A DNA stretch of 64,000 nucleotides from Echinostoma caproni (lineage: Eukaryota; Platyhelminthes; Trematoda; Plagiorchiida; Echinostomatidae), in assembly GCA_900618425.1 (NCBI GenBank), contig UZAN01040240.1, positions 1 through 64,000 on the forward strand. The letters run 5' to 3'. Positions within the stretch are counted from its first letter, which is position 1; every line of letters begins with the position of its first letter. This document shows, in pieces, positions 7,560 through 56,545 of this stretch. A program made the translations under genes and the position numbers. The notes below the pieces were generated by a model. It saw only the letters and a program-made list of their open reading frames with translations. It searched no databases and was not told where the DNA came from.

Positions 7560-7860
7560 AGAAGGAACTGTAAGTCGCTGATCGATTGACTCCTGGTTGA
7601 ATCGATTTACCACATATCATTCAAACGACTAGTAACAATAGATACATGGATACATGGATATCCGGCTGGAGCTGGAAAACAAATTGAATACGAATAAAAT
7701 CATTTCGTATGAATCAGTCGGTCTGTGTGACCATCTACGTGTCCGAAAATTGATGTGAGAAAATTGACCGACCACGTAATCCTGTGTTGACCAATTGATA
7801 TTAGTGAGAATGTGCATTAGAATCGCCTCAGCCGTATGCGATCACTTTGTGCTGTTTGTT
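7560..7860. repeat. Duplicated block carrying an 18-nt exon (copy)
   Basis: It aligns with 11600-11830 through GGCTGGAGCTGGAAAACAAA versus GGGTGGAGCTGAGAAACAGA, a shared GAATAAAATC, and GAATGTGCATTAGAATCG versus GAATGCACATTGAATCG. The block ends close to the Tc1 relic, which may have interrupted it. Confidence 0.6.
7654..7671 (-). CDS. 18-nt micro-exon (PAGYP)
   Basis: The exon is CTCCAGCCGGATATCCAT on the minus strand, after the very strong acceptor TCAATTTGTTTTCCAG. In the common phase (CT, five codons, T) it reads P-A-G-Y-P. The donor is GTATCC, weaker than the GTAAGT of its paralogue at 11686-11703, and lies in a 9-base tandem repeat (ATGTATCC twice). Conservation of exon length and acceptor across two diverged copies is the main support. 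The weak donor may make this exon optional or dead. Confidence 0.55.
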
Positions 7861-7900
7861 CCGTTTGTTTCCCTGAGGAAGTCCTACTCATTGTATTCTC

Positions 7901-8583
7901 GTGGTGGAGGTGTTCTCCATCAAAGTGAGAAAACCAAAAGCCGACATTTGGAGCTGTAACCGGGTGGTTATGCATACGTATCAGTTAAACGTACCTAACC
8001 TTGAGTTCCTTGGAAGGCTGACAAAAAAGTCGTGTGTTGAGAATTTCCCCAAAAAACTTATTCCACCAAATGAAATAATTTCTCGCCTGTCGAGATTATT
8101 CATTTCGGCAGGGTTAAACATGGTCAGCCTTGTTGATGGACATCATTCAAAGGCACTATGAATAGTGGTAAATTTGCATCAGTAATTTTGAAAATGTTTC
8201 CATGAAAAAAAGTTTGTCCGGAAAAGTTATCGTTTTTCAGTAGAACGTTCAGTGTCATGTTTCACGAGAGGTATGTAAATTTAATAATATAAGCAATCTG
8301 GTTCTCGTACTATTTGCTTCTAGACTTGAGAAACCATGCTTGTGACTCTATGGTCAAGTTCATGCAACTTCCTCCTAATAGCCCGGATCTCAACGTGATT
8401 GAAAATCTGTTTTCTGTTTTGAACAGAGGTCAATGTGCTATTTATACATTGGACACTAGAGGCAAAAGTGCTCTACTTTATGGAGCACAACATAGAAAAT
8501 GACTTCATAAAAATGTTGGTGGATTCAGTGCCGAAGAGACTCGAAATGTCCTAAAGAACAAAGGCAGGCCAATCGACTATTAG
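7901..8583 (+). pseudogene. Tc1/mariner transposase remnant
   Basis: The C-terminal half is clear. Around 8240-8273 the frame reads FQ, a stop, then NVQCHVSRE, which corresponds to FQQDNAPCHVSR, so the catalytic Asp is lost. About 50 bases later comes QLPPNSPDLNVIENLFSVL, the hallmark DDE third-acid region. The end reads LVDSVPKRLEM and, after a one-base shift, VLKNKGRPIDY-stop, the usual Tc1 C-terminus. The earlier frame (VVEVFSIKVRKPKADI) resembles the VWGAFS strand but is less certain. Inverted terminal repeats were not confirmed; TGTCCACAAACTTT after the stop resembles an inner terminal repeat. The copy is dead, with stops and frameshifts. Confidence 0.8.
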
Positions 8584-8661
8584 TGTCCACAAACTTTACA
8601 TGTTGCTTACTATCACTGTTAATTTTCTGTTAATAAAAACTGTTCCATTCTCTTTAGTTAC

Positions 8662-8694
8662 CTCGTAAGTCATCATGATCTACGCCAATCACTA
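8662..8694 (-). CDS. Candidate 33-nt micro-exon
   Basis: The minus strand has acceptor TATCATTTCCTCAG, then 33 nt, then donor GTAACT. In the common phase it reads V-I-G-V-D-H-D-D-L-R without a stop. The composition is acidic rather than Tyr/Pro-rich and the donor is only moderate, so this may be chance. Confidence 0.3.
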
Positions 8695-8889
8695 CTGAGG
8701 AAATGATAGTGTCCACTGCATTCTGAACCTTTCCATGTGCTGAGTATAAACGAATCATAAAAGCACATATATAACGACTCAGCAAGGCTTGTTTATTATT
8801 ATTTGGAAAAAATGTACTTCAGTATAAATGCTGTTGCCTATACGGACCAACAAGTGTTTCATAGGGACTCGATGCTTCAGTTTCGATTA

Positions 8890-8940
8890 GACCTATATTA
8901 TATATATATATATGTATACATATTTATATATATATATATC
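8890..8940. repeat. TA-rich microsatellite
   Basis: Two runs of alternating T and A are separated by GTATACATATT. No gene overlaps it. Confidence 0.9.
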
Positions 8941-11599
8941 CAATCACACGCTTCCAGATGTGCGGTAAATGAGTTACACTTTCAAATCATCTTCTACCTT
9001 TACAACGGTTGTCTCCATAAATCACGGCTTTCCTTTTATCTACTTCATCAATGCAGTGTGTGGACGGAATTAATAGTGACCGTTGGTTTCACATACTCTC
9101 ATTCGGCTGTAAACGTACATTGTTGAGACCGTGCCAAGGAAATAAATATGAAATTTGATGTGAGTCAATTGCGCAAACCGGTGGACAAGTGTGCTGCATG
9201 ATCTGTGTTTGTTTACGAGTTACGGTCAAGTTAGATGGTAAGATGTAATGTGAAAGTGAANATGCGGTGAATGTGTTGGAGGGAGGAAGAGGAAAAGTCA
9301 TGTCACACACTAGAGCAGAGTGTAATCAGGGGTGACACCATCGCTGCCACAGCAACATAAATGGCGTCACGTTCATGCATTCATTCATCTAAAATACCCA
9401 AATCACGATCGGTCAGCAACTAAACTTCCGCAAATGATACGTGCTTGATTATCCTCGATACGGGCTGATTGTTTCCGAGATGCGAGATTCAGTAACTTCA
9501 GGTCAGGCCGACTTCGTGGACATCCCAAATACCGATGCCAGCTCCCGGCGGTCAGCAGCAAGATCTACCTGGAGACTGTGAACCAGCCTAACTTCCATTG
9601 GTGATTAACTTATAGTCAACGGATAGCAAGATCTGCCGCATTGTCGTGTACCATGTCTTATCAGGTTTTCAGATGTCCGACGCATCGACAGCTTCAGTTT
9701 GGGCAGGAAGATGAGGCTAAGGAAGCTTGTTTCCGGCCGTTGACTGATTTACTCATTATATATTAAAACGATTGCAGCTGTCCCCTTTGAATGAACGTAC
9801 TTAGCCATATGAGATTGAAATACCGGTCTCTGATTGTTCCTTTGGTGAGCCCGTTCCTTGTTCTGTCTCTTATTAGGATTTTTATGTGACGGTGGTTGAT
9901 GGCAATAGTCGTCTACAGCCCTCGACTGTTGTTAACTACGTTTCGAAACCGTAAGGCATGAGAGTAAAAAGTTCTGCGCAGAAAACTCTTTTTTGTACTT
10001 TAGGCGGATATTTTTTCTACGTCACATGGAATTCTTCAACTGAAAAGAGGAACACTTCTGATTGAATCGATGCACAGTTGTACCTAAATTTTTGCTTTGC
10101 CGTTGGGCAATGTGCTTGAGTACAAGTAATTTTGGTTTTAGACGGACTCGATTAGGTTTAGATTCAGTTGTAAATTAACTTGAGAATGAATTAGGAGTGT
10201 CATCAACAGCTCATCTTGAGATGTGTTCAACTCTCTGGACGGATCATAGATGTCCGTGTACAATGTTCCTACAAGATGAATTGTTCATTGATATCCCGTA
10301 TGGTGTTGTTTCTCAAAGTGAATGCACACACACAAGCAATCACATTTGCGGTTATCTAACTGGCTGATCCATCAAAGCCCCACATTCTCTGGCACTGTGG
10401 TGCACACAACCACTTAAAAAAAGTAAAATGCTTATAATTATATTACCACCGTTGCCCAGTGAAATATTTGAGTTTGTCAGGTTAGAGCATTACGTATTAC
10501 AACTGCAGGTCACATCGGAAATCACATTGCTGTTGGTCTGAAATGGATAAAAAAGCGTCATGCTGAGTGGTGGTGGTGGTGGTCGTGGATGTTTGGACGA
10601 TTATCAAATTTCCCAAAATGTTCCAGCTAACGATATGACTGGTGCAATCTGATTCCCTGGTGTGTTGGTCGCCGGAGACTACGTGGCCTTGGAGTCCAGT
10701 GCTCCCCAAAGGCACAACATGTCATCCATGGCAGCGGGGCTAGTTCTTGCACGAGGATATTTCGTGCTGCGCAGATAATTTCACAAGTAAGCTGCTGTTA
10801 CTTTCTGTTCCCACTTGCCGCCAATATGTGCATAGGAAAACTCAGTGGGCTATGCAGCACCACTGTATTTGGTGCAACAGAATTGGAAATCTCATCGTGC
10901 TGAACGAGCCCCAACATACGTTGAAGACCTTCAACATTCATTAACAGTCTGCTTGCATGGGATTGCACATCTTTCGCGAAGCAATCGATGCCATTGATTG
11001 ATCAGAAGACAAGTACTTTATGCCTGTTTAAGGCAAGGGGTTATGCCTATCGTCAATTCAGGCTACTAAGTAAACGGATACGTATAATTGCTTCTCAGGG
11101 ATCTGTTCGGTTACAATTGGTTTGAAAAGTTTCCCTTACAAATCGAAAGGACGCATGTTACCGATTAAACACGCATGGCACAGGAGGGAGACGACCTGCT
11201 CCAGTGCATGATGCGTGGCAATGTCCTACTTAATGTTCCTAACGATTTCGGGGATAATGTCTAGTTAATAAAATGATTTCTAGTGTGATGTTCTTAAATA
11301 CATGTTCGATTGAATTGCTCCAAATTTACTTGTCCCACACTGCAATCACGTGGGCAAAAAAGGTGCCATTTCAAACAGTAGTCTGGTGTTCATTGCCATG
11401 TAAAGATCGTGTGTTTGCACGAAATAAAATCTGCAGCCAGACTTCAAAGCAAAAACTTAAGACTTTTACGATTGCTATTATCATCAGTTTTCCAACAGTG
11501 AACAACTCTATGCGTGTGAATACCTTAGCCATGAGGCAGACATCGTGTCAGATAGAAAGTGAGAAAGAGAACCGTTAAAGTGCATTTGTGGAGGAAACG
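8941..11599. other. Intron or intergenic sequence
   Basis: Nothing recognisable was found apart from a short (GGT)n-like run near 10567-10582. An N at 9261 marks an uncertain base. Confidence 0.5.
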
Positions 11600-11685
11600 A
11601 ACGCGTTGATACCCCATTTGGGTTCATCTAGCAAGATGCGACAAATTCTATTCAAAAGATTAGTGATAGGGTTTCAAACACTTAC

Positions 11686-11703
11686 ATGCATATACGGGTG
11701 GAG
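11686..11703 (-). CDS. 18-nt micro-exon (PPVYA)
   Basis: The exon is CTCCACCCGTATATGCAT. It follows acceptor CCAATCTGTTTCTCAG and precedes donor GTAAGTGTTT, both strong. In the common phase it reads P-P-V-Y-A. It is the paralogue of 7654-7671, with four base differences in 18 and the same borders. Confidence 0.7.
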
Positions 11704-12337
11704 CTGAGAAACAGATTGGACAGGAATAAAATCGATGAAACCGGATAATTACGTGCTGCTTTTTCACTTTTTCGACAACGAAACGAATGCACATTGAATC
11801 GACGCAGTCATATAAGTTCTATGCATTTTGTGACTAATTGATTGTTTAGCTGTTCCTACTCCAGGTCACATCTATACAGGGTGTATCCCAGTTTTGTTTT
11901 CAGACGCTCTTGCTCAATCTGTGTATCACACATATCCAATACGCGTTTTTCAGTGAGAGCCACTAGTGTATCCAACTGCTATAGTAAGTTTGGCTTAAAG
12001 TCGCTTATCCTTCTTATCGATTTCAAAGAGTGAACAGGAATGAATAACGTTTTATTCGATCAATCTGACTGTTTGTGCAGTGTGTTGAATTGCATTGACT
12101 ATTCAGTTGCGAATCAGTTGTAGAATAGATCGAAAAATAGGTCACAAATGTCAGCGTAATAGTGAATATAGCGTGCTTCCGTGAAATGTGGTCGCAGATG
12201 CACGAGCTGGTCATCATAACGGAAGGTACCTTTCATCGCCTTTCGCATAACTAACCATCAGCCTGTTAGAACAGAAACAAAAGAAAAAAGCTGAGTGGGA
12301 AAATTCGAAAGCACCATTTACGTGAAGGCGCACTCAC

Positions 12338-12409
12338 GTTGTTGTTGCTGCGGCTGCAGCGGCTGCTGTTGCGTTTGTTTTTGTTGTGCTGTTGGTGGTC
12401 CTGCTTGAA
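12338..12409 (-). CDS. Gln/Pro-rich symmetrical exon (72 nt), copy 2
   Basis: The minus strand has acceptor TTTTCTCCATTTTAG, then two bases, 23 codons and one base, then donor GTGAGTGC. The frame reads QAGPPTAQQKQT followed by QQQPLQPQQQQ. The other two frames are Ala/Thr-rich and Ser/Asn-rich; the Gln frame is preferred because it is the one shared with 580-642 and the one consistent with the phase of the neighbouring exons. Low-complexity CAG runs like this expand easily, which could explain the length difference (72 versus 63 nt). Confidence 0.65.
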
Positions 12410-13200
12410 CTAAAATGGAGAAAAGGGTACGCATGAGGGGTTGATAACGGCCGTATTTAATTATCCGACTGCGAAAATCTGATAAATTCAAAATTGACTG
12501 ATTAGTTGCTGTGAAGAAGGTGCCGCGAGTGTTGATACCGGTTTTCGAATCAACACAAATTACCCAACTCCATTCAAGGCAATACGAACGTTGAACGATA
12601 TTGCTGACACCATTTGATTGATGAATACTGTTGCGGCTTAAAATTGACTGATACGCGTGTCGGTCATATCTGTGGCCGGATTGATTTATCGATGGATTAA
12701 CATATGCAGACTGCTATCATGTATGCACGTACTTACCTCATATTGACTGACTCTAATATAATATCGATTGGATCGATTTATCGATCGATTGAACTGTCCA
12801 CACTGAATAATATGTTGACTGTTTGAATGTCTGCTTGACCGTAGTCGGCTGTTGTGTGACGCTTGAACCAGTTTGTTGGCCTGCCTGCATACCTTCCCGC
12901 TTTTCTTCCTGGCTGCCTGGCTGCCTACCTGTCTACGTGTTGACCGGATCTGCTTGCTCACCGACCTAAAGACCAGTTACATTTGTGCCTGCTGCAATAA
13001 ATGTACTGCTTAGTTCACTGCGTGCGTATTCACCTACTTAAACGGAACACAGAACGTGTATAATTTTTCATTTTCAAAAACACTTGACCTAGCAAACATC
13101 CCCACATGTTAGTGGCTCACACGAAATGGGATAATGATCCCTTTCTGTGTTCCCGATCGTAACGGTCGAGGTGATTTAAGCCCCGTTTTCGAAAACATAC

Positions 13201-13469
13201 AGATTTATCAGCTTCATCAGAAGCAATACGATCGGCAAACTGATTGCACAACTTGCTACTCCATTATGCTAGACGATAACAGGTTGGCGTCGGATGCATG
13301 TCCTTGAGTTAGCTGTAAGTTCAGTTGCCTTATTCAAAATGCTTTCAAATCAGTGCATTTCCTTACATCCGCAGACACGTGCCGTTAAAATTCATCGGTA
13401 ATAACTTCGATCGACTGAATAATGAGAGTGACGGACAAACTGAAAATCACGTTTGGGTACCTTTTGGTC
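13201..13469. other. Unassigned spacer
   Basis: No feature could be supported between the duplicated block and the SINE B copy. Confidence 0.5.
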
Positions 13470-13745
13470 TAAATTCATTAGAAAAACACCTGAAAAAGCA
13501 TGAATTGATAGTTTGGTTCAGCTGCGGTATGAGCTGGTTGGCACAGTGGTTACAGACACGCCTACCATGAGATGGGTCCGGAGTTCAAATCCCAGACGGG
13601 ATGGTGGATATGCGCCCCCGATGAGCTCTAATAAGAGAGAAACTCGAGTCTAATGCTTCCCAGTGTATGGTTGAATCGATGAACTGAGGATTGTGCGTGA
13701 AGTTGAAGTCCGAAGGATAGTCAGTCAAGTCAATCAATATAAATT
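13470..13745 (+). mobile_element. SINE family B, 5'-truncated
   Basis: It contains A box GGTATGAGCTGGTTGGCACAG, B box GGAGTTCAAATCCC, GGATGGTGGATATGCGC, a hammerhead and the tail AACTGAGGATTGTGCGTGAA. The 5' unit present at 5041 and 14943 is mostly absent or diverged. Confidence 0.85.
13612..13656 (+). ncRNA. Hammerhead ribozyme, partly decayed
   Basis: The core is CCGATGA (U4 changed to C). Stem II is GCTC/GAGA with loop TAATAA, then intact GAAAC, loop TCGA and GTC. Stem I is lost (GCGCCC against TAATGC). The palindromic ACTCGAGT is intact. Confidence 0.7.
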
Positions 13746-13763
13746 ATCCCACACACTACTCAC

Positions 13764-13769
13764 AAGTAA
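13764..13769 (-). CDS. Candidate 6-nt micro-exon
   Basis: TTACTT lies on the minus strand between GCATTTGTTTCACAG and GTGAGTAG, both near-consensus. It would fit the common phase. An exon this short cannot be judged from composition. Confidence 0.3.
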
Positions 13770-14714
13770 CTGTGAAACAAATGCGATACAGCAGTTTAGT
13801 TATTGTTGGTTGTCAGGTACATCATGATACATTTGTTAACCTGGGAAGGTAACTGAATGCTGTGCCGATTGGTAAAGCTGGTACAATCTGATACTCTTGT
13901 CTGGCGATCATCAATCAAACGTGAGAGAATGAGTTCAACTTCTTTAGGATGACAAGCATTTCTCGACGATTCTGGTAAACAGATACCTCGTACGTATAGG
14001 TTCTTACAAACATCGCAACTTCATCAAACTGCATTGGACGGTGCCCGTTCGTATATTGTTAGAAATGAGGAACCATACTTCTTCAGTTGAGAAATGGATC
14101 AATAATGAGTCTGACTACTTGTACGATGTCATGATTCTGGAGGTCAGCACCTAGATGATAGCAATATTGTGCTGACTAGAAACTCAAAACCATAGTGAAG
14201 GAACCAGTTCAGTTTCGCGGTGTACAATCTGCATCCTGATAAATTCCGGGTTCATTCCCCAATTTTGGTAATAGTCCTTCGCCTAGCGCTGTTCATACGA
14301 CTCTATACGGTGTCCTGGCTTTACAGTTTACATTATTCTTATTTTGTCTATCACGAAATTCGTCATTGCACTTCACCGCGCTCTCTTGCAGCTCAGTTCT
14401 CGGTCCTGGGAAAAGTAGTTCGAGAGACTAATGATTATATTATAAATTGCAACCGATATTAATGTCTTGCATTCGGTTCGAATTCACAGTGATATTAGGG
14501 ATACGTGTAGCGACCACATTGAGCAATCGCAAATCGTGTTGACAGTTACAAAGCCCGAAGATGAGCGAAATATTGAAAAAAATTGCATTTACATCGCACT
14601 TACTTGTCAGTAGTGGTTGTGGTATAATTGATATTTGTTTCCAAACATTTCATCACCAGCCGAGGTGACATCATCAGTGCTGTGAAGTGGTATTGATATT
14701 TTATGATTTGAACA
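13770..14714. other. Unassigned sequence
   Basis: A minus-strand donor (GACAA then GTAAGTG, near 14598) could end a 76-nt Thr-rich exon (NINYTTTTTD), but its length is not frame-neutral. No other signal was seen. Confidence 0.4.
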
Positions 14715-14939
14715 AACTATTCACCATCATGCACAATCCTCAGTTCGCTATACATTCGGAAGCATCAGGCTGGAGTGCTGCTATCATTGGAGCTCATCAG
14801 TAATGCATATTCACCGTCCCGTCCGAGATTTTGAATTTCGACCCCATCACATGGAAGGCATGTGCGTTACCACTGTGCCAACCAACTCACCATGGCTGAA
14901 CCCAATTACCAGTTCATGTTTTGTCAGGTGTCGTCTTCC
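14715..14939 (-). mobile_element. SINE family B, inverted, 5'-truncated
   Basis: Read on the minus strand: GAAGACGACACC, AACATGAACTGG, A box GTTGGTTGGCACAGTGGTAA, a B box decayed to AAATTCAAAATCTC, a hammerhead, and the tail AACTGAGGATTGTGCATGA. Its 5' end meets the 5' end of the plus-strand copy at about 14940. Confidence 0.85.
14762..14806 (-). ncRNA. Hammerhead ribozyme, decayed
   Basis: The CUGAUGA core is intact. Stem I GCATTA/TGATGC is still fully pairable: it differs from GCACTA/TAGTGC on both sides but keeps pairing through G-U and A-U. GAAAC has become AGCAC and the cleavage triplet is GCC, so it should be inactive. Confidence 0.7.
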
Positions 14940-14942
14940 CAA

Positions 14943-15363
14943 GTAACCGTGAGTTAAATGGGAATTATCAATCCATATTCGTTGGCAAGTCAGCCCGTAA
15001 CCTGTAAGGAAGTCCTGAGTTGGTGAGAGGCTTTCGATTGGAGTTAACATATTGTCATCTGTGTCTCTTTTCGTTATGGTCGGGCCAAATGAACAACCAC
15101 TGAAGATGACAACTGAACAAACATGAATCGATAATTTGGTTAAGCTGCGGTATGAGCTGGTTGGCACAGTGATAATGCACACGCCTACCATGCGATGGGT
15201 CCGGAAAGAAATCCCGGAAGGGATGGCGGATACGCACTACTGATGAGCTCTAATAAGAGAGAAACTAGAGTCTTATGCTTCCGAGTGTATGATTGAATCG
15301 ATGAACTGAGGATTGTGCGTGAAGTTGAAGTCCGAAGGATAGTCAGCTCAAATCAATAAATAA
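14943..15363 (+). mobile_element. SINE family B, near full length
   Basis: It aligns end to end with 5041-5470: GTGAGTTAAATGG, GGCTTTCGATTGGAGTTAA, an AACATGAATCGATAATTTGG stretch, A box GGTATGAGCTGGTTGGCACAG, a B box decayed by a short change (AAAGAAATCCCGG), a hammerhead, the tail, and the end CTCAAATCAATAAATAA. A 60-codon minus-strand frame across it is a repeat shadow. Confidence 0.85.
15234..15278 (+). ncRNA. Hammerhead ribozyme, core intact
   Basis: CTGATGA, GAAAC and GTC are all intact. Stem II is GCTC/GAGA (three pairs plus a G-A at 10.1/11.1) with loop TAATAA. Loop III is TAGA. Stem I GCACTA/TTATGC has two mismatches next to one closing pair. Of all copies in the window this has the most complete core, but its weakened stem I probably limits cleavage. 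Confidence 0.75.
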
Positions 15364-15869
15364 TCGTTTGCCTAATGGTGTATTTTATTATCGATTTTCA
15401 CTGTGCCCCACGAAATCTGGTCAGTCATTTACTGATTAGATTCCTAACGGTTCTCATCAAATCAGGATTATTTTTCCATATTAATTTCGATTCAATTTTC
15501 CCATATCACTCTTTGTCAAAAATTAAGACAGCCCGATTCGTGTGTCAATCAGTGCGTTTATTGGTGATATTCCGACATCAACTGTATCAAAATGGGATCT
15601 GGTTGTTCGTTACCACGTTCCATATAGGAGATTGCACTTTATTTTCCCTTACTGTATATATGAACAACTTTTGACATGGAACTGAGCGCAGCAATTTGCA
15701 AACCTGGCTACACGCGGAGGGCCGCTAGACTTGCTGCGCTACACAAATAGCACGTAAGCTTTTCTGTCGCGGACAACACAGTGCTTGATTCAATTGATAT
15801 ATTTCCTGTTTCGAAACCATGCTGCTCCGCTAAGGGATTCAATCAGCAAACATCTATATAATATCATGA
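15364..15869. other. Unassigned; 99-codon frame not supported
   Basis: The plus frame at 15375-15674 starts directly after the SINE tail, is hydrophobic and matches nothing I know. I see no splice sites tied to it. Confidence 0.4.
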
Positions 15870-16060
15870 ATTCGTCACGTAAATGAGATGCAAGCTGAAA
15901 AAATAGGAGGCACTGGACAGCTGATTCCACCCTGTTGGGTCTCATCAGCAGTGTAAACCCACTGACGATTGGTTAAGCTGTAAAAGTTTCTAAACGAGTC
16001 AAAACCCTGGAGTCTAGGGTTAAGATGAGCGGTAAGATACCCATTATTAGCCCACAAAGA
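15870..16060 (-). mobile_element. SINE family A, inverted
   Basis: The minus strand carries a GGGTTTACACTG lead, a hammerhead at 15911-15953, CCTCCTATTTTTTCAGC, and CATCTCATTTACGTGACGAATT. The tRNA-like head is replaced by poorly matching sequence; only CCAGGGTTTTGACTC vaguely resembles a B box. Confidence 0.7.
15911..15953 (-). ncRNA. Hammerhead ribozyme, nearly intact
   Basis: Stem I CACTG/CAGTG is perfect. The core CTGATGA is intact. Stem II GACC/GGTG has loop CAACAG and lacks the 10.1-11.1 pair. GAAAC has become GAATC (A15.1 to U, opposing U16.1). The cleavage triplet GTC and the palindrome centre AGCT are intact. Confidence 0.7.
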
Positions 16061-16149
16061 TCTGTTGTGCTACATCGATTATATTCAAAACGAGAAACAT
16101 TCTGATCAATTACTGGAGGGTCCAGTAAGTATATAGTATGTTTGCCTTC

Positions 16150-17595: not shown

Positions 17596-17616
17596 TTGGT
17601 TGTGGGTATTGTGCAC
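17596..17616 (-). CDS. 21-nt micro-exon (AQYPQP)
   Basis: The minus strand has acceptor ATCACTTATTCCTTGATAG, the exon GTGCACAATACCCACAACCAA, then donor GTGAGTTG. In the common phase it reads A-Q-Y-P-Q-P, a composition between the Tyr/Pro units upstream and the Gln/Pro exons downstream. It is isolated by 16.7 kb from the next exon at 34309. Confidence 0.6.
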
Positions 17617-21245: not shown

Positions 21246-21249
21246 AATA

Positions 21250-21425
21250 AAATATGATTTTGATTGACGTGCCTGACCGTCCCTTGGACTTCATCTTCAC
21301 GAAGAATCCTCAACTCATCGATTCAATCATGCACTTGCAAGCACTAGACTCGAGTTTCGCTCTTATTAGAGCTCATTAGTAGTGCATATCCACCAAAAAT
21401 GATTGTAGGAGTTTGAAAACGCATA
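21250..21425 (-). mobile_element. SINE family B, inverted
   Basis: The minus strand reads TTCAAACTCC (decayed B box), TTTGGTGGATATGCACTA, a hammerhead at 21341-21385, TTGCAAGTGCATGATTGAA, GAGTTGAGGATTCTTCGTGAA and a GTCAATCAAAAT end. The A box is missing or unrecognisable. Confidence 0.8.
21341..21385 (-). ncRNA. Hammerhead ribozyme, one core change only
   Basis: Stem I GCACTA/TAGTGC (6 bp) and stem II GCTC/GAGC (4 bp, loop TAATAA) are perfect. GAAAC, loop TCGA and GTC are intact. The single defect is CTAATGA for CTGATGA (G5 to A), a position at which substitution abolishes activity in known hammerheads. This copy best shows the family B consensus. Confidence 0.85.
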
Positions 21426-31262: not shown

Positions 31263-32829
31263 CCTATTTTGTAGGACAAACATCATTCATCAATCTATCG
31301 ACTAAGTGATGCGTGGCTGATATTACCTGTGGAGTTTATTCTGATTCTTGGATAAAATCCGGAGCTTCGACACACACACACATTCTTTCTAATTTACTAG
31401 CGGTCTGTGTCTGAGTACGCTAATGAACCTCCAGTCATCTAACAAGCACCCGTCCTAACCTGTTTGCGCCAGTCGTCCCAAAATACGCCACAGCTAAGTT
31501 CGATTGGATCAACGTGCTGGGTAAAATGTAGCAAAGTAATTGCGTTTTACCCGCTATTTGTTGTAACGAACAGAGTTATTGTAATATTAGTATCTCATCT
31601 GTGATAAGCAAAAAGTGATACTGAGCAATTTGTACGCATTTCATTTCTATTTCCATAAAATTAACACCCATATATATATATATATATAATGAAATTGAAA
31701 AAAAACAATTTAAGCAATCTTCCAGCGAAGAGCTGGTGCAAGTTGTGATTAATGATCTTGTCTTCGTCTCGCAGTTATTATCTCACTGACTATAAACACA
31801 TCACTTTGTTTGCGGTATGGGCACGTGTTTGTACAGATGCAGCAAAATGACCATGGGGGGTGTATTGCGCAAACCCAGTTGTTTTTGACTTCTCTATTCA
31901 AATTTGTGACGGGAAAACATTGTTTATATAATATAGTGATTCAAAGTGTATGGGTTAGTAAAGTACTGTTGTATTAGCGAGTGAACAATTTTGATATTCG
32001 TTAGAAAACTGTCTGTCAGTTCGGTTTGCAGTCCTTTCAAAATCAAACTCACTCCGAAAAAACTCCATCTCCCCGCCTGAATAAAGTTACAAAAGTGAAG
32101 AAATCTTATTTCACCGGGTTGTTATTGCAGTCGTAATTCCCCACTATGGATAGCAAGCACCAGTGTCCAGAAAATCTTCAAAAGCATGGATGTGAACAGT
32201 CAAATGCTACGCGATGAGACAGAGGTAGCAATATCCTGACTCATCGATTATAGGCTGTTTATACGAAATAAACAGCTAAATTTGTCGAGGTATGCCGCAG
32301 ACGCTTGATAAGTCCCCACATGGATGAGGAAATTGTCCGTGTGCCACAAAATGACTGTTACACATCGAAGTCCATCATGATAGCAATTGGTCGACAGTCT
32401 CGTTTAAGCACGTGTAAAATCATATAATTTATGATTGTACTGGATGAGTATTTTGTTTTTATTATAACAAAATTTTTCATCAAGCTATGAATAATTGAGA
32501 TCAATCAGACAATTAATTGTAGTGTGTGGAATCAATCCGGACAGGATAAGGTATCAACTGAATCCGGGTAAAAGGACACTCGTCGATAGTCAGCAGTTTG
32601 TACAGTGTGAAAGAAACGAACTTTACATACAGATTGACTGAAGTGTAATTTGGTGAGTGTTATTAGACAAGATTTTGGGCAATGTTAAGATAGCGTTGGC
32701 CATAAACCCATTGAAACTCTTGATATTTCCGCATTTATTCGCATCTCCAGTTCAGTCATTTCTGCTGCCTGAACAACCAAGTTTGTGGTATAACATGATA
32801 AGTAATATTTGATTACGAAAATCGATCCT

Positions 32830-33012
32830 GGGCGGTGGTGGCCAAGTGGTTAGGTCACCAACTTGTGACCTGGGAGTCCCGGGTTCGAACCGCTCCCCCG
32901 CCGCACGTCTTCTCAGGCAGCCTTTGTATGGCTGCGGCCCCCCTTCCTGAATATTGACTGTACATTTACATATTTGACAAATAAAAAGGAAGTGAAAGTA
33001 CATTATTATTAT
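32830..33012 (+). mobile_element. SINE family C (class II tRNA-like head)
   Basis: The head reads GGCGGTGGTGGCCAAGTGG then TTAGG (A box), a variable-arm-like TGACCTGGGAGTCC, B box GGGTTCGAACC, and CCCCCGCC closing the acceptor. GGCGGTG pairs with CCCCGCC at six of seven positions. TGGCCAAGTGGTTAGG resembles Leu/Ser-type tRNAs. The body (AGGCAGCCTTTGTATGGC) and a TTGACTGTACA segment recur at 6953 and 61440, and the 3' end is (ATT)n. It is a dispersed element rather than a functional tRNA gene. Confidence 0.85.
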
Positions 33013-34248: not shown

Positions 34249-34254
34249 TTTATT
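34249..34254 (-). promoter_or_regulatory. AATAAA polyadenylation signal
   Basis: The minus strand has AATAAA about 55 bases after the in-frame TAG of the exon at 34309-34334. It fits a 3' end there if the donor is not used. The motif is common in AT-rich DNA. Confidence 0.35.
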
Positions 34255-34308: not shown

Positions 34309-34334
34309 CTAATATGGGAAGCCTCCATAATAAC
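34309..34334 (-). CDS. 26-nt exon with in-frame stop (YYGGFPY)
   Basis: The acceptor is TTCGTTCCGCAACAG and the donor is a perfect GTAAGTATT. Entered in the common phase the exon reads Y-Y-G-G-F-P-Y then TAG, so it would end the protein. It is the only strong candidate whose length is not a multiple of three. It could be a terminal exon that reads past the donor to AATAAA, an alternative poison exon, or a real internal exon in another frame (L-L-W-R-L-P-I-L). The Tyr/Gly/Pro composition favours the first reading frame. Confidence 0.5.
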
Positions 34335-36077: not shown

Positions 36078-36894
36078 AAATTACCGGAATTCGATACGCA
36101 ATATTGCTCAGGTTTACAATGTTGTTGGAATTTTCTTCTCGGAGGATGAATCGAGATTTCGTCTAATGGGCAGTTAATTTAAAACAATGGTGTTTATTTT
36201 TCCAAGGCACATACCGTCGGGAAACACTAGTGCTGCAAATGAAGAAAAATGTTGAAAAATTAACCTTATGTTAGATGTGGAGATATGCACCGATGTAATT
36301 ATTCCGCGTATGGGTAAACTCATGCATTCCCTTTTGATAAATGCACTCTCGTTTGAATACACTATCCCGTCATTGTGTGTGGACCTTAATCGTAAAAACA
36401 AGTAGCCACGTGGAATCGCTGGCTATTTTGGTAAAATCTAGTAAAAGTGTTGCATTCTGTTCGACTATTATTGTACAAATAATCCTGGAGCAGATGTGTG
36501 TAGAAAGGAGGCAGAAGGGTTCATATTGCGGCTAGGGTTGATAAACACGGTTGATACAGTCCTTCCGCCAATAAAATTGGTTAGTGCGTTCACTATGCAT
36601 CTGATTCAGTAGTGGATTACGATAAATAAGGTGCCCATATTTAGGATTGAGGAATTATTTGCTCACGATTTTGATTTAACTCGGGATTCCTGGCTAAGAT
36701 ACTTTTATCATAGTACGTTATTTGTTCTACTGCTCGAGTTCTGTTTGTAAGAATAAAGCCAAAAAAGCGATTCATGAAATGTTCGTATATCATCTAGTGA
36801 TATTTGATTTGAAGCGTTCAATACAAAGTTACAATGTAATGCACAGTGTATTTTCCTTGGATGAATCTAGTTACCACGGAAAATCCACGAAATC

Positions 36895-36985
36895 AAGTGA
36901 TGATCGAACCCGGGGACTCACAGACTGAACACAAGCGCGCTACTCACTCGATTACCGGACAGTCGATCAGACCCTTGGATTTTAT
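36895..36985 (-). mobile_element. tRNA-like SINE head remnant
   Basis: The minus strand has GGTAATCGAGTGAGTAGCG (A-box-like) then CCCGGGTTCGATCAT (B box). The GTGAGT strings here belong to the tRNA-like sequence, not to splice donors. Confidence 0.45.
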
Positions 36986-41552: not shown

Positions 41553-41570
41553 GTAGTTGCGGTATGTAGT
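41553..41570 (-). CDS. 18-nt micro-exon (YIPQL)
   Basis: The exon is ACTACATACCGCAACTAC between acceptor GGATACATTTTCCTCAG and donor GTAAGTGAAC, both excellent. The common phase gives Y-I-P-Q-L, and the junction codon from the exon before is CAC (His). It lies 3.7 kb downstream of the exon at 45291. Confidence 0.75.
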
Positions 41571-43069: not shown

Positions 43070-43210
43070 TAGCAAATGAAGCGTGAACTGATCCCCAGTT
43101 GGGTCGATGGATTCGCACGGCTGATGAGACCCAACCAGGCTAAAACAGCAGTGCTTCCTAACTTTTCAGTTCACGCATCATTTGCCATAGACACGACGAA
43201 TTCCTAGTTG
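43070..43210 (+). mobile_element. SINE family A, 5'-truncated
   Basis: The order is CTGATCCCCAGTTGGGTCGA, TGGATTCGCACGG, hammerhead, CTTCCTAACTTTTCAG, TTCACGCATCATTTGCC, ACACGACGAATTC. Only the end of the B box (GATCCCC) is left of the tRNA-like head. Confidence 0.75.
43115..43153 (+). ncRNA. Hammerhead remnant lacking its cleavage site
   Basis: CTGATGA is intact, but GGTCGAAAC has become GGCTAAAAC. The expected ACAG-CTGTC-CAGTGC is shortened to ACAGCAGTGC, a five-base loss between CAG repeats that removes the GUC and stem III. Confidence 0.65.
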
Positions 43211-45290: not shown

Positions 45291-45308
45291 GTGGAGTCGG
45301 GTGGTAAA
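45291..45308 (-). CDS. 18-nt micro-exon (YHPTP)
   Basis: The exon is TTTACCACCCGACTCCAC after acceptor CATTGTTAACCCCATAG and before donor GTAAGTTAG. The common phase gives Y-H-P-T-P, with TTT (Phe) formed at the upstream junction. Like its neighbours it begins the unit with Tyr and has Pro two residues later. Confidence 0.75.
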
Positions 45309-46533: not shown

Positions 46534-46551
46534 ATGGATATGGGTAGGGTG
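46534..46551 (-). CDS. 18-nt micro-exon (PYPYP)
   Basis: The exon is CACCCTACCCATATCCAT, with acceptor TTTGTTTATACTTCAACAG and donor GTAAGTCC. The common phase gives P-Y-P-Y-P. The junction codon before it is CCA, so the run is P-P-Y-P-Y-P. Confidence 0.8.
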
Positions 46552-48718: not shown

Positions 48719-48736
48719 GCAGATTCCAGTTGTATT
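48719..48736 (-). CDS. 18-nt micro-exon (YNWNL)
   Basis: The exon is AATACAACTGGAATCTGC. Its acceptor CCTTTTTCTCCCTTTTAG is one of the best in the window, and the donor is GTAAGTGATC. The common phase gives Y-N-W-N-L. The first two bases are AA, so it must follow an exon ending in C, as 49191-49208 does; after an exon ending in T it would create TAA. A 128-codon plus-strand frame covering this spot is treated as a shadow. Confidence 0.75.
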
Positions 48737-49190
48737 CTAAAGGGAGAAAAAGGCTGTATTATTTCCTGGGGACAAATTTGACGAAAGTGGCATACGCGTT
48801 CAGTTTAATCTGTCAAATAATGAGTATAACACACTAGTTGGTTAGCAAACTGTTTTGTTTGCCGGCAAGGGCTAATTTGTACATAGTAGTGGTTGAACAC
48901 TGATGCCTGCATGTCCTCACTGAGGTCTATACGATGTAGTTCAGCATGTTTCTTTTGGGGTTGTTTCTGGCCGTCGATCTAATTGTGTACATTTAAAAAG
49001 CGTTGTTGGAGAGCTACAAGTAGAGCAAATCGGGTTAATCAAATTAAATGTCATTCATGTACGGTCTTTGCTCGTAAATTGGGTTGTGCTTCAATTTCAA
49101 GATGTTAACAATGACATGTACATAGATTGATAATGTGTAAGTGTTTGGAATCTTGACTGTTGTTTTGTCAGTCATTAGACGGTCACTTAC
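48737..49190. other. Intron
   Basis: No feature was seen. Confidence 0.5.
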
Positions 49191-49208
49191 GTCGATACGG
49201 ATAGTAAT
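49191..49208 (-). CDS. 18-nt micro-exon (YYPYR)
   Basis: The exon is ATTACTATCCGTATCGAC, with acceptor CTGTCTCTCCCTCTTAG and donor GTAAGTGACC. The common phase gives Y-Y-P-Y-R, preceded by a junction TAT, so the run is Y-Y-Y-P-Y-R. Confidence 0.8.
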
Positions 49209-50236: not shown

Positions 50237-50615
50237 NNNNNNNNNNNNNNNNNNNNNNNNNNNNNNNNNNNNNNNNNNNNNNNNNNNNNNNNNNNNNNNN
50301 NNNNNNNNNNNNNNNNNNNNNNNNNNNNNNNNNNNNNNNNNNNNNNNNNNNNNNNNNNNNNNNNNNNNNNNNNNNNNNNNNNNNNNNNNNNNNNNNNNNN
50401 NNNNNNNNNNNNNNNNNNNNNNNNNNNNNNNNNNNNNNNNNNNNNNNNNNNNNNNNNNNNNNNNNNNNNNNNNNNNNNNNNNNNNNNNNNNNNNNNNNNN
50501 NNNNNNNNNNNNNNNNNNNNNNNNNNNNNNNNNNNNNNNNNNNNNNNNNNNNNNNNNNNNNNNNNNNNNNNNNNNNNNNNNNNNNNNNNNNNNNNNNNNN
50601 NNNNNNNNNNNNNNN
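50237..50615. other. Assembly gap (379 N)
   Basis: The gap is flanked on both sides by GCCAACTCATC, so the two contig ends share at least eleven bases. The open frames reported through it are artefacts. Confidence 0.95.
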
Positions 50616-50979
50616 GCCAACTCATCTCGTTTTTTGTCAAATGTTTAAAAGGGAGTGAGGTGGGTTGGAGAACACATGAAAGAACGGGAGGAGAAATAAT
50701 GAACAATCTAGCTGCATGACCAGATGATTTCAAGAAAGTGGGACACGGACAAGCTGGGTCTACTTGTACACTGCACTTTCATCAAGTTTTTAGTCCTCTC
50801 GCTCTATTATTTTCTCCGTATAGATAATCGTAGGAAAACAAAAACAGAGGCACCCCGAGAAAGTGTGTGGTTACCGAGTGAATAGGTTGAGAAGGTAATG
50901 TTAACTTGTTTGTAAGTTTAAAATTGAAAAATGCATATAAAAAAATTTGGGTAACAATGATGGCCAAGTCGGAACTTAC

Positions 50980-51003
50980 ATCCATNTCCATACGGGAAGT
51001 AAT
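50980..51003 (-). CDS. 24-nt micro-exon (YFPYGxG)
   Basis: The acceptor is CTCAATGTGTTCACAG and the donor GTAAGTTC. The common phase gives Y-F-P-Y-G-x-G, where x is unresolved because base 50986 is N (NAT: Asn, Asp, Tyr or His). The exon start (ATTACTTCCCGTATGG) closely resembles that of 49191-49208 (ATTACTATCCGTATCG), suggesting the two arose by exon duplication. Confidence 0.75.
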
Positions 51004-51643
51004 CTGTGAACACATTGAGATCAACAAAGACCAATCAGGTGGAAGCAAATACGTTTCCCTGAGAAGATTATACATTATATTTTCCAACATGAATAGATCT
51101 GTGATGGGAATGTGCCCATCCGCGCAGCTTCAAACTGAGTTCATCAAACTGATGAAAGATGGATTCAATAAGTTGAACAAACAATAAGGTCATCAAACAG
51201 GGATAAAGTATATGAACCTAAGGTGAGCGCCATACCAAAATGGTTCACAAGTTAGGTTGAGGAGAGAAAAGCAGGTAACGCAGGTAAAAAAACGTGGATT
51301 GCCAAAACGGATCACGGTTTAGTGAAAATTGAGCGTCTTGTTTTCATCTATTCGTCATTCTTCTAATCTATTGACGATCAGTGAAGAAGCTCATAATTGT
51401 AGTTATCGGCTCAGGAAGGGAGAATAAGATCTTTATCAATTTCGGTTGAAGAACAATTTAAGATCAGTAGAACCCGTAGGCCAATCGCAAACAACAACAT
51501 GGAGCACATAACCATTGTTCGCCACAATTGTTTATTAAAGACGGTATCGGAACCATCCGTCAATTAAGCACACAGTTGCTGAACGCAGATAGGATTGAGA
51601 ACGGTCAGGACAAGTAACCAGAACGATGAAATTTTATACTCAC

Positions 51644-51673
51644 ATGGGTTGTACAGGTCCGGATATGGTTCAT
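51644..51673 (-). CDS. 30-nt micro-exon (EPYPDLYNP)
   Basis: The acceptor is TTTTTGTTCACTAAAG and the donor GTGAGTATAA. In the common phase the exon reads E-P-Y-P-D-L-Y-N-P after a junction TAT. The pyrimidine tract is good, and Tyr/Pro make up five of nine residues. Confidence 0.75.
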
Positions 51674-53924
51674 CTTTAGTGAACAAAAACGAACGATTGT
51701 TGATAAACGTTTTGCTAACGAGAAGTTCGCCTAGGCGAATGGATGAACAAACGGAACTGGCAACAAAACCTTTGATTGTTTTCAGATATAACCATAACTT
51801 GATTGGAAACGGCCTGTAATGCTAAAACATATATATTGAAACCTGGTCAAGTCAAGTTGGAATAATGCCGTATGTGAATGTAGGTACATGTTTCAGGCAA
51901 CAATTAACAAAAGAAAAACAAATTTTGGCTATTTCATTCTTATTGAACATCTATGCTATCTCGATGTTTCCGCATTTTTCTTTTAAGTTCAGCTTTCCAG
52001 CATTGAACCCAAACTAATTTGGCCCACGCGGCTCGCGACACCGATGGGAATGGAACTTTCCTGGTGCTAGGAATTATATTGCAGTGTTCTGCCAAGTGAC
52101 CGCCAACCTTGTCACACGTTTTGTAACCTGGAGCGCGTCCCACCAGTATAGCTTGTTTTTCAGCTTGGTTCTAATAGCATCTCACCAATGTATGATGCTT
52201 CTGAGTTGACCTGAATTGGTTCCACACCGATTAAGAAGGACAAGATACCAACAGATAAAGCTATTTCACTTCCTCTTGTAGTCCAGATGTATTACCATTT
52301 CAGTCATCTCTGACCACTACCTGATCAATACATTTGTCGGTGATCTTCCGGAACATCGTTAAATGTTTTGATTATATTCTTATTTTCTCCACTGTAGCAA
52401 GTGTGTCCTATTGCTGTCCGCAGATAGCCACATTCTACGCTATGAAGAGACACTTCTCGTCTGTAGCGCACAGAGCTAATAGCCGTTTTCCAGCACAAGC
52501 GGTGCTGTTGAAAACTCACTACACGCATGGTAAACAGAAACAGTGAGTTCCACTTAATAGCACCCAGTTTACGGAGCTGGTTCACAAGAACGGCCCTCGG
52601 AAATCCCAGTATATCCGTTTTCACGATGATTAAGCCTCCAGAAATGGAGTACGCACTTTAATTTTCAATTGATATGAAAATGCTCCATAATTCTGTAGTG
52701 TTGGAATGTTTGCAAAAACGTCTGTCACCTTTTTTCTGTTACCAATCGCCCTTTTTGGAGACTTTGCAAAGCTGTTTTGCATACACGCATGAATCGGACC
52801 AGTTGTTCCTCACGATGAAAACCACCGCCGGATTGAACTATTAGCGCGCCGCCATAAACAACACAAACCAGTCCTTCCAAAACCTCTACTAGTAGCATTG
52901 ATTCAAGTAACTCCTTCAACGGTGCTTTGGAGCGTATCGTATGATAGCGGAAAATTAATACTATGATCCTTAGAAGAAATCGGTATGACTCATTGCTTTC
53001 CTGCGTCAGAGAGTGATATTGTAATGGTTGATGGACAGCGTTTCATCCCACCGCTGAATCATGAAAGTTGTTGCCTTGGGAACAAATCAATTGGAACTTA
53101 TTGTACACTGAATTTATTGATGATACTTCACCATCGTGAACTGCAGCCCAACCGTACTGTTTACGCAATCCTCAAATTGCTCAAAACACCATTGGGACTT
53201 CTTTCTGATTATGCTAATAAGGTTTTACTACACAGTTAGTCAATACGAACAAATGGGTCTTTGGAAGTCATTTTTGAGCTTTGCTTCCAATGTCGGACAC
53301 TCGGGATATTACACTATGCTGATTCATGCACTCTGACACGTTCATCACTCCTTCACAGTGCACGTATGAAAAACCACACACCCATTCAGGAACACCGAAT
53401 CCCCGTCGACGTTCGGATGTTTTTAGTACATTATATAACTTCCTTTCGAATTCGTTAGGTGGTATCAGACAAAGTGCTTATCCGCATCGTTTTGAGAACA
53501 GATGAACCAATAAGTAACACTGAATAGTCAAATGAAGTCACGAGAAAGATTTGGTACGTTTATTTTACGCAGGCGATGTATGTAGACACATCGGTCTGAT
53601 GGTGCTACTCGAACTAACGAACTCGGCATAAAAGTGAAACTGTTCCAGCTTGAAAAATGTATGCTCCATTATGGCTGGTTTAAGTTCAATCACATTTCAT
53701 CTACGTGTAAAATAGACTGGCTTCCGCTTGTTGATCGGTGAATTCATCACCAGATGAAATTTCATTTGATGCCGCATCCCAATACCACTGATGGTCACTT
53801 CACTCCCATATGCCCTATTCTTTAACAATGTCAACGATTCCGTAGTGTTTGCTGCAGTCAATCGGTTTGAGGAACACCATTTGAGTCTCAGATGCGATGG
53901 TAATGTTTCTTATAACCGACATAG
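51674..53924. other. Intron, with one weak exon candidate
   Basis: The only signal is the candidate at 52186-52200. Overlapping small frames at 52.3-53.5 kb have no recognisable family. Confidence 0.45.
52186..52200 (-). CDS. Candidate 15-nt micro-exon (ASYI)
   Basis: AAGCATCATACATTG lies between AGGTCAACTCAG and GTGAGATG. The length is frame-neutral and the common phase gives A-S-Y-I, but its AA start after an exon ending in T (54963) would make TAA. The pyrimidine tract is also poor, so it is probably not used in that order. Confidence 0.2.
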
Positions 53925-54065
53925 AGCCTCGGGCAGTTGTTTAGTCTTGTTTGGGGCTCGTCAGCAGTGTGCACTTTCTGTGTGTCCCTGCCAGGATTCA
54001 AATCGCGAACCTTCGGGCTGGGACTTCAAACCCTCACCTTTGAGCTACACGGTCGACGGTTATCA
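53925..54065 (-). mobile_element. SINE family A, inverted, with tRNA-like head
   Basis: Read on the minus strand: GACCGTGTAGCTCAAAGGTG (A box), a CCCGAAGGTTCGCG stem, GATTTGAATCCTGGC (B box), CACACAGAAAGTGCACACTG, then CTGACGAG and a decayed hammerhead (53931-53968). CTGACGA is allowed since position 7 is free, but stem II, GAAAC and GUC are degraded. This copy best preserves the A box of family A. Confidence 0.7.
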
Positions 54066-54591
54066 CCTTGTGCAAATGGCTCAATCAGTTTACAGTATCA
54101 AGCTTGGATTAGCCCATTCGATTGTTCAGAGGTACTAGGCACTTTTGATGGTCGGTTACAAAAACGTTTCCATTGTATTTGGATGCATTAACTCGTGGAG
54201 AATTACCGGTCTCTCAATGAGTGAAATCCACATCCAAGACCATAAACAGTGCCCAGTGCCTCTGAACAATCGATTGGGCTAATCAAAGCTAATCCATTTG
54301 AGCCTGTTCCACTGACTTTTGAGTTGTAAGATACGACAATTGAACACATCATCCATTCACCCCAAACACGAAATTCAATTCATCCACTTAGATGCTTAAA
54401 ATTCTTAGGAGAAGCACGTATTGAAAAGAAAAACGTGTGTGTTCCAACATAAGTGAAGCTGCGTAAAGCAGTGGAAAACGCACGTATCACATGGCATATT
54501 ACAAAGAGATTTCTATGTATCACTGTTTCCTAATCCACCGCACGAACCTATGGGACCAGAAAAGCATGAGCTTGTAAGTTATTCCCATAAT

Positions 54592-54622
54592 AAATCTTTG
54601 AAATCTTTGAAATCTTTGAAAA
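54592..54622. repeat. Short tandem repeat, 9-base unit
   Basis: Three copies of AAATCTTTG run in tandem, followed by AAAAG. Confidence 0.9.
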
Positions 54623-54962
54623 GGGAAGAAAGGTCAGATGTTTAGAAAAGGTGGCATTCTTCAAACGTCAAAACAGGGTCCTTTCCGTTTTGCTTTGTTG
54701 TGCATCAAATTGTATGCATGCGTCGATCCTCGTCGGATATCATTCGAAACGTGGGGGGTTAATTTTGGGAATTCAGGCGTTGCAGTGTCATCCGAGGTCA
54801 TTCAAATTACTTGAATCCCTAGGAAATCAGAGTTTGGATTCCCAGTGGACGACTACAGATAGAAACGCGTACTCAGATTCAATGCTGTTGGTTGGTTAGT
54901 TTCAATCAATGAAAGTAAACATGCGTGCACAGTGGCACAGTCGTGGCACAGTGGTAACTTAC

Positions 54963-54980
54963 ATCCATATTCGTTCATAT
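54963..54980 (-). CDS. 18-nt micro-exon (MNEYG)
   Basis: The exon is ATATGAACGAATATGGAT, with acceptor TTTTATGCATTCACAG and donor GTAAGTTACC. The common phase gives M-N-E-Y-G after a junction TAT. It carries Glu and Gly like the other 5' exons and less Pro than the later ones. Confidence 0.7.
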
Positions 54981-55724
54981 CTGTGAATGCATAAAATGTG
55001 ACAAGGACTAATCAGGCCAAATTGACAACGTTGGTCAAGGTGCAGTTTTGAATATATCAGTATAGATAGAATGATGAAGCACTGTGAGAAGTGAGCAGAA
55101 GTAGGAGACAATGATGATATGTGGATGTGGCAGAAGAAACCAGTTCAAATTGCAATCCGGTTCGGTGAATAGATGCGACTAGCGATATCTCTGCATTATA
55201 TCAACATTTGATGGTAGATTGGAGTCTGTTGTGGAAAGAGATGTTTCGAAATAATTTTCGTTCATCATAATGCAAACGGAATCCACTCGCAGGACACCGC
55301 TATTTCCGCATGATCAATTAGGGAATCTAGAAATCGGAATAAAAAGTTTCATCAGGGGAGAATGACTAAGAACCAACGAAATGAAGCCAAACAGATACAG
55401 CGGCAGTTTTCTGTACTACATATTGCTCTTGTTTTGCACCATGTCTGATGTTGAATGCGTTGCGTTAATTTGCAAAGCCTCTGAACTTTGAGAGGGTTTT
55501 TGACCTGGGCGTTTTTACAGCGTTGGATGTCGAGATGTTAGACGGTTGAGGAATCTGTCAGATACTTCTATGGGTGCCACTCATAGAGTAAGACATTTGG
55601 AATCGTTAATTTCGGAGCGGCAGATTTTCATCAGCTGAAACCATCCGGCAGTTAAATAAAATTACACCAACAAAGGTAGGACTGAGATAAGAACAGCCAA
55701 CCGTATCAATATCAGTATACTCAC
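54981..55724. other. Intron
   Basis: No feature was supported. Confidence 0.5.
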
Positions 55725-55884
55725 ATTCGAAGGGCTCCTCCGGCAATGGTAGATCTTCAGATTGTACAGAGATGAATAGAAAGGGGATGAGGAAGTAGAG
55801 TGAATAATGCCCGCGACAGCTGAAAGGGGCGGGCAATGCTAAATTCTTAAGGGGTATCTTTCCTCTGCCACGATAAGTATTTGT
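55725..55884 (-). CDS. Leader exon: hydrophobic segment then acidic Pro/Glu stretch
   Basis: The donor is GTGAGTATAC. The last 30 nt (55725-55754) read L-P-L-P-E-E-P-F-E in the common phase. Upstream, the same frame stays open back to a good acceptor (CACTTCATTTTAG) at 55885, which would match the phase-0 end of the start exon at 56531. Within it is a hydrophobic run HYSLYFLIPFLFISVQS resembling a signal peptide core. Caution: that run is encoded by a pyrimidine-rich tract ending CTGTACAATCTGAAG, which could itself be the acceptor of a plain 30-nt micro-exon at 55725-55754. A third option is the acceptor CCCGCCCCTTTCAG at 55820. The 3' border is solid; the 5' border is open. Confidence 0.55.
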
Positions 55885-56530
55885 CTAAAATGAAGTGTAT
55901 AACAGGGTCTAGATTCTTCATCCAGAATGTTCGTTTGATTGATAAGTGGAAAAGTGGAAAAGGTCGTATTCATACAAGGAAATCGATAAAGCGATATAAG
56001 TTTGCCAACTGTTGTCCTGCAGTTTAGTGAAGAATGATTCCAATATTTCGAAAGCGAGTTTATTTTCTGTCACATTTCTATCAACTAAGAGTTTTCTAAC
56101 CGGAAACCCGTTTGCTGCCCAAAAAAACGCATTTCAAACAGGCCGTTTAGCCCACTGTTTATAAATTTAGTGTAGTTATCTCGGTGGGATTCAAACGCAC
56201 CGCACGCATGTCGTCCTCTCTTTTGTTTAACACACTCTGCCAGCTTTGATATAACGCTAATCTAAGACCACTGATCTTTTCGATTTTTGTTTTACTTATT
56301 GGAGTGATCAACCGTGAAATGCGCAGGGTTATTAGTGTTTCCCGGCAAAACATAATAAATAATGTGCTAAGCAATAGGTACTGCTACTGGAAAACTGTAG
56401 ATCGAAGAGTCTCCCTCAGCAAAACAGGCGTTTGAACGCACAAAATCTCAAACAAGTAATAATACACACATCAGGAGTGACTTTCTACACCTACTGCAAA
56501 CAGATACAAATTACAGGATTGCAAACTTAC
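55885..56530. other. Intron 1
   Basis: I found no further frame-neutral exon in it. Confidence 0.4.
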
Positions 56531-56545
56531 CATAAAAGTCTTCAT
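56531..56545 (-). CDS. Start exon (MKTFM), coding part
   Basis: The minus strand reads CTAAATCACA then ATGAAGACTTTTATG directly against donor GTAAGTTTGC. The start has A at -3. MKTFM is a typical opening of a secretory signal peptide. It ends on a codon boundary, so the next exon must enter at phase 0, which the long version of the exon at 55725-55884 does. The 5' UTR extent is unknown; no TATA box was identified, and trans-splicing of a leader is possible in flatworms. Confidence 0.55.

Follow-up and report, generated by a model that had tools for sequence, protein, structure and literature searches.

PMC4350168 describes micro-exon genes (MEGs) as a class that seems confined to platyhelminths and has signal peptides and very small symmetrical exons; for one of them, MEG-3, it gives one exon duplication event. 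The working criterion set out in PMC7653826 calls for at least seven exons, at least half of them micro-exons (<70 nt and divisible by 3), in runs of at least four. For the MEGs of Schistosoma mansoni, PMC10526429 gives 15 nt as the commonest micro-exon length and an N-terminal motif of FL, two hydrophobic residues, F, any six residues, W, a polar residue and K, H or R. Bicycle genes are built from many exons, almost all of one phase; nearly all of their internal exons are of phase 2, and many of their products carry CYC motifs (PMC9168663). We examined a 64,000-nt stretch of DNA from the trematode Echinostoma caproni (contig UZAN01040240.1, positions 1 to 64,000; hereafter the window). Judged from its sequence, the minus strand of the window likely carries a gene resembling the flatworm MEGs, or two such genes side by side, with a Tyr/Pro-rich product and spanning most of the window.

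The exons are named here by their left coordinates (see Table). The predicted list holds 14 exons (36215 and 34309 were left out), each of a length divisible by three and without a stop in phase 1. Thirteen of the 14, all but the 72-nt exon 12338, count as micro-exons, and the first ten of the list are consecutive micro-exons; when exon 55725 is taken in its 160-nt form, the figures become 12 of 14 and nine. On these counts the prediction falls within the working criterion of PMC7653826. The prediction thus shows the very small symmetrical exons that mark MEGs, in long consecutive runs as in Schistosoma, Echinococcus and Hymenolepis, and it shares with the MEGs of these worms the long introns, the exon duplication, and the expected exon skipping without loss of frame. 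It differs from them in its most frequent exon length, 18 nt against the 15 nt of S. mansoni, in a product rich in Tyr/Pro and then in Gln/Pro, and in that no sequence match was found. In its construction the locus agrees with a MEG, which it probably is. The bicycle effector genes of aphids, phylloxerans and scale insects resemble it in their many small, strongly diverged exons of nearly uniform phase, whereas the exons here are of phase 1 throughout and encode no CYC motifs. Tropoelastin-like and other repeat-exon structural genes also have small, symmetrical, Pro-rich exons with one repeat unit each; these differ in being longer and rich in Gly/Val/Ala.

As a sequence feature the locus is confirmed. 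An earlier note on this DNA had listed eight minus-strand segments of 18 nt, and all eight lie at the coordinates given there and are bounded exactly as AG/18 nt/GT; the 21-, 24- and 30-nt segments listed with them were located at 17596, 50980, 51644 and 55725. The splice sites, called strong in that note, are so at seven of the eight donors (GTAAGT) but not at segment 7654, where the donor reads GTATCC. Splice-site score matrices were made by hand from the splice-site consensus, and segments of 9–60 nt with an acceptor score of at least 2 and a donor score of at least 4 were collected from both strands of the window. The minus strand gave 13 such segments, 6 of them of 18 nt; among the 11 on the plus strand no segment had that length. 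At this cut, 200 dinucleotide shuffles yielded a mean of 0.07 segments of 18 nt per strand (maximum 2) and no more than 3 of any one length, a control that covers the post hoc choice of 18. Lowering the acceptor cut to 1.5 gave 7 segments of 18 nt on the minus strand (shuffles: mean 0.10, maximum 2, no length above 3), and these seven, picked by splice scores blind to composition, are seven of the eight originally listed. The count in shuffled and opposite-strand sequence that the earlier note proposed as a check therefore gave an equal number of 18-nt segments in neither.

The excess resides in the combination of length and donor. On the minus strand 7 segments fit AG/18 nt/GTAAGT, where the remaining 51 lengths average 0.57 and reach at most 3 (at 9 nt); the plus strand has one such segment, with a mean of 1.0 for the remaining lengths. 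When any GT donor is admitted the 18-nt class is ordinary on the minus strand (200 vs 203; plus strand, 227 vs 215). The pattern YAG/18 nt/GTRAGT was found 8 times on the minus strand, including a site at 36922 (RLCSV) which is not counted as an exon, vs twice on the plus strand, where one of the two has a stop in phase 1. The plus strand thus has some candidates. A relaxed scan for 18-nt segments open in phase 1 gave 8 on the minus strand (with 36215 included and 7654 missing) and 2 on the plus strand.

All eight segments are open in phase 1, as had been claimed, which is weak evidence because none of the eight has a stop in the frame with one leading base either. In phase 1, 22 of the 40 residues (55%) are Tyr or Pro, in agreement with the Tyr/Pro character first reported, vs 12% and 10% in the other frames. 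The background was taken from 322 AG/18 nt/GT segments open in phase 1 on both strands, with a mean of 0.42 Tyr plus Pro per five residues, and none of 200,000 random draws of eight from such segments reached 22; the figure is not free of selection, as composition also guided the original choice of segments. When the 14 exons are joined in transcript order, none of the 13 junction codons is a stop, and TAT stands at the first four. Of the 21 ways in which the observed exon ends combine, only T + AA gives a stop (TAA); exon 48719 begins with AA and so cannot follow an exon ending in T. There is no cysteine in any exon peptide, lysine (by eye) is restricted to the Q-rich exons, and the composition changes from Y/P to Q/P further downstream.

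We compared 17 exon regions, each with 400 nt of flank, using up to 400 random window pairs as the null (maximum score 24.2), and inspected the 14 best pairs; four entries of identity 1.0 whose coordinates coincided were overlapping flanks of neighbours and were dropped. Four pairs scored above the null maximum: 12338/580 (124), 11686/7654 (36.9), 55725/51644 (32.3) and 54963/50980 (27.4). BLAST found the first two pairs (E 4e-24 and 1e-6, respectively); the last two were not found by BLAST at E 0.01. The introns of the 30-18 pair 55725/54963 (744 nt) and of the 30-24 pair 51644/50980 (640 nt) are similar, and the simplest reading of these exon pairs is a duplicated two-exon cassette. The pairs 48719/41553 (20.0) and 46534/17596 (19.5) were borderline. 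When eight query regions were searched against the minus strand, 45291, 49191, 46534 and 17596 each had another exon in register as best match, and the best minus-strand match of the first exon, 34309, 36215 and 32053 was not an exon in register.

The gene would be assembled from phase-1 symmetrical exons, most often of 18 nt, with introns between them that range from about 0.45 to 24 kb. Every exon of 18 nt would add six residues, five from whole codons and one shared with its neighbours, to a product mostly rich in Tyr/Pro with a Q/P-rich part further downstream, and the array grew in part through duplication of one- or two-exon cassettes including their splice sites. Since every exon length is divisible by three and the phase is uniform, skipping would remove whole units without a frameshift, except where 48719 came to stand behind a T-ending exon. 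We infer that these exons are spliced into a single transcript, that the product is secreted and varies between isoforms, and that it acts as a variable secreted protein like those of flatworm MEGs. Exon length, donor strength, phase and composition make the locus recognisable in raw DNA, and together they form a search recipe for such genes in any assembly. If it is expressed, the even 18-nt units and the visible cassette duplications would make it a clean case of array growth and of protein change in fixed steps through skipping. We regard it as a clean instance of a known gene architecture, reached by a route that needs only DNA.

Several results weigh against a gene of this kind. A search of a protein database for homologues of the two conceptual products gave none with E≤10 among 6452 candidates for one and no candidate for the other; neither product matched Pfam, and the one of the two that was compared with the PDB gave no match there. 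On the plus strand 131 plain YAG/18 nt/GT segments were counted where the other lengths average 105, a count that shares the top rank among the 52 lengths; for this excess, which is without strong donors, we have no explanation other than chance. When only the downstream introns of 13 exons (580 was left out) were compared, with 58 other GTRAGT sites as reference, 3 of 78 pairs exceeded the 99% level of the null where 0.8 were expected; common descent of all exons is therefore not claimed, most pairs being without detectable common descent. Only weaker candidates lie in the 24 kb between 41553 and 17596. No single-exon signal peptide upstream in the window passed the hydrophobicity cut. The hydrophobic stretch YSLYFLIPFLFIS before 55725 was first read as a signal peptide, and this was doubted because 55725, in its 30-nt form, resembles 51644 up to and including the acceptor; the stretch may well be a pyrimidine tract read by accident. 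The degraded donor of 7654 belongs here also and, together with the lack of a clear signal peptide, speaks for segments that arose by chance, or for exon copies in decay, with no working gene. We consider this very improbable, given that far less is obtained from shuffles, the opposite strand, other lengths and other frames, and that seven GTAAGT donors are intact. A micro-exon gene of another animal kind, for example a bicycle gene of insects, is improbable: bicycle genes likewise have many exons almost all of one phase (PMC9168663), but with phase-2 internal exons and, in many of them, CYC motifs, where this locus has phase 1 and no cysteine.

Two explanations that keep the micro-exons as genuine were given more room. 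It is possible, though less likely than not, that the locus is two tandem micro-exon genes, one running from about 56.5 kb to the terminal exon 34309, the other Q/P-rich, starting below 34 kb and continuing past the left window edge. The in-phase stop after YYGGFPY with an AATAAA beginning at 34254 (55 nt past the exon), the shift from Y/P to Q/P and the 24-kb gap would all fit this; against it, the one search made for a second start gave no significant copy of the first-exon region elsewhere on the minus strand (best score 19.0), and exons 46534 and 17596 are alike, at a borderline level, across the supposed border. Moreover AATAAA is frequent near 34309 (4 in 1.4 kb), so that a gene end there is hinted at; exon 34309 may be the end of the gene, the end of a first gene, a poison exon, or chance. 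The other explanation concerns the product, which in place of a host-facing variable protein could be cross-linkable extracellular structural material (eggshell, cyst wall or adhesive) with one exon for one Tyr/Pro unit. More than half of the residues in the 18-nt exons are Tyr or Pro, Tyr stands at the first four junctions, and a Cys/Pro/Tyr-rich, extensin-like extension is described in a fluke vitelline protein (PMC11727788); set against this are the absence of cysteine, the lysine confined (by eye) to Q-rich exons, and the failure to find a homologue in the protein database, and we think it rather unlikely. Were it so, splicing might set the number of repeat units in a cross-linkable extracellular protein, with cassette duplication preserving 18 nt as a fixed quantum, in a family without recognisable relatives in the databases searched; this too is speculative, and we would not expect it to hold.

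We return to the MEG-like gene as the favoured reading. The minus-strand micro-exon gene of the earlier note, read here with symmetrical phase-1 exons, finds good support in the length excess, donor strength, composition and cassette duplication; its extent, given there as 7654 to 56545, is doubtful, since exon 580 lies outside, 34309 with its in-phase stop may end the gene or a first gene, and 7654 has a degraded donor. The gene may run beyond the left window edge, past exon 580. Since 580-642 is a copy of 12338-12409, behind which 11686 comes after 634 nt, an 18-nt phase-1 exon resembling 11686 would be expected some 70 nt outside that edge. Two stretches within it could hold further exons. 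At 32053-32076 on the minus strand there is a 24-nt segment, open in phase 1, with strong splice sites and encoding GEMEFFR, thus without Tyr or Pro and, as said, with no in-register match to another exon in the search of the minus strand; it is a possible extra exon within the 24-kb gap. A run of 379 N at 50237-50615, between exons 50980 and 49191, could hide another micro-exon. A form of 87 nt that shares the donor of exon 51644 is also open in phase 1.

The 5' end of the prediction is uncertain. Between 55760 and the right window end three donors score at least 3.5 and have an open ATG frame, and the donor of the candidate first exon, MKTFM, is one of them. Directly behind it lies a 37-nt intron-like piece (GTAAGT..TTTGCAG), splicing of which would give TAG in phase 0; we gave it no weight because pieces of 30-47 nt like it occur on both strands. 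For candidate exon 2 the acceptor scored 2.2 at 55884 and 4.4 at 55819. Three other continuations of MKTFM are hydrophobic, with poor splice sites. The S. mansoni N-terminal motif was sought by eye: FLIPF is present, no W follows after six residues, and the N-terminus is itself uncertain.

Table. Predicted and candidate exons of the MEG-like locus in transcript order (scores for flank pairs and BLAST E values are given in the text where absent here).
Feature	Position	Strand	Basis and remarks
Candidate first coding exon, MKTFM, phase 0 out, donor GTAAGT	56531..56545	-	uncertain
Candidate exon 2, 160 nt, phase 0 in/phase 1 out	55725..55884	-	open behind MKTFM; hydrophobic stretch YSLYFLIPFLFIS
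30-nt micro-exon LPLPEEPFE (last 30 nt of candidate exon 2)	55725..55754	-	phase-1 scan; similarity to 51644
18-nt micro-exon MNEYG	54963..54980	-	splice-site scan; flank similarity with 50980
30-nt micro-exon EPYPDLYNP	51644..51673	-	phase-1 scan; flank similarity with 55725
24-nt micro-exon YFPYGxG, one N at 50986	50980..51003	-	phase-1 scan; flank similarity with 54963
18-nt micro-exon YYPYR	49191..49208	-	splice-site scan; best minus-strand match elsewhere is exon 48719, in register, score 20.5
18-nt micro-exon YNWNL, starts AA	48719..48736	-	splice-site scan
18-nt micro-exon PYPYP	46534..46551	-	splice-site scan; reciprocal best match 17596, in register, borderline
18-nt micro-exon YHPTP	45291..45308	-	best match elsewhere exon 49191, in register, score 16.0, not significant
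18-nt micro-exon YIPQL	41553..41570	-	flank similarity with 48719, borderline
Possible micro-exon of 18 nt encoding LVFPD; acceptor strong, donor GTATGT	36215..36232	-	weak; absent from the earlier note's list; best match elsewhere is a non-exon
Possible terminal exon YYGGFPY + in-phase TAG, then GTAAGT	34309..34334	-	best match elsewhere is a non-exon
21-nt micro-exon AQYPQP	17596..17616	-	splice-site and phase-1 scans; match to 46534
72-nt Q/P-rich phase-1 exon	12338..12409	-	paralogous, with flanks, to 580-642
18-nt micro-exon PPVYA	11686..11703	-	splice-site scan; paralogous to 7654
18-nt micro-exon copy PAGYP, donor GTATCC	7654..7671	-	paralogy to 11686
63-nt Q/P-rich phase-1 exon, copy of 12338-12409	580..642	-	weak acceptor, score 0.1

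Elsewhere in the window, a 93-aa open frame on the minus strand at 3587-3868 recalls a decayed reverse transcriptase and had no support from Pfam. Ten long open reading frames of the 64 listed were scanned against Pfam and gave three weak matches (E 0.037, 0.12 and 0.23), all below the cut-offs; a homology search with one open reading frame, picked as a possible pointer to the taxon, returned no relative; the window scans gave no tRNA and no Rfam family at the gathering score. The GC content of the window is 40.5%, with a CpG ratio of 0.88 (nearly undepleted), which speaks against a vertebrate. For flukes, GC contents of 43.1% (PMC11727788) and 44.1% (PMC6530080), and mean introns of 3.5 kb (PMC6530080) and 3.7 kb (PMC4404566), are given, so that the GC content and the long introns here are near fluke values; they would also fit many invertebrates.

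A dispersed repeat was found at five places, 5043-5470, 13485-13741 and 14946-15363, and inverted at 14720-14938 and 21257-21395, its BLAST matches spanning 56 to 432 columns, with 74-88% identity, and running in both orientations; it looks like a short interspersed element. A second dispersed repeat of about 100 nt lies at 4816-4955, 15863-15961, 43090-43183 and 62860-62990, its copies being 71-76% identical and in both orientations. An inverted pair of about 100 nt (32855-32954 and 61468-61568) is 83% identical and contains GGTTCGAACC, which we take to resemble a tRNA-type B box.

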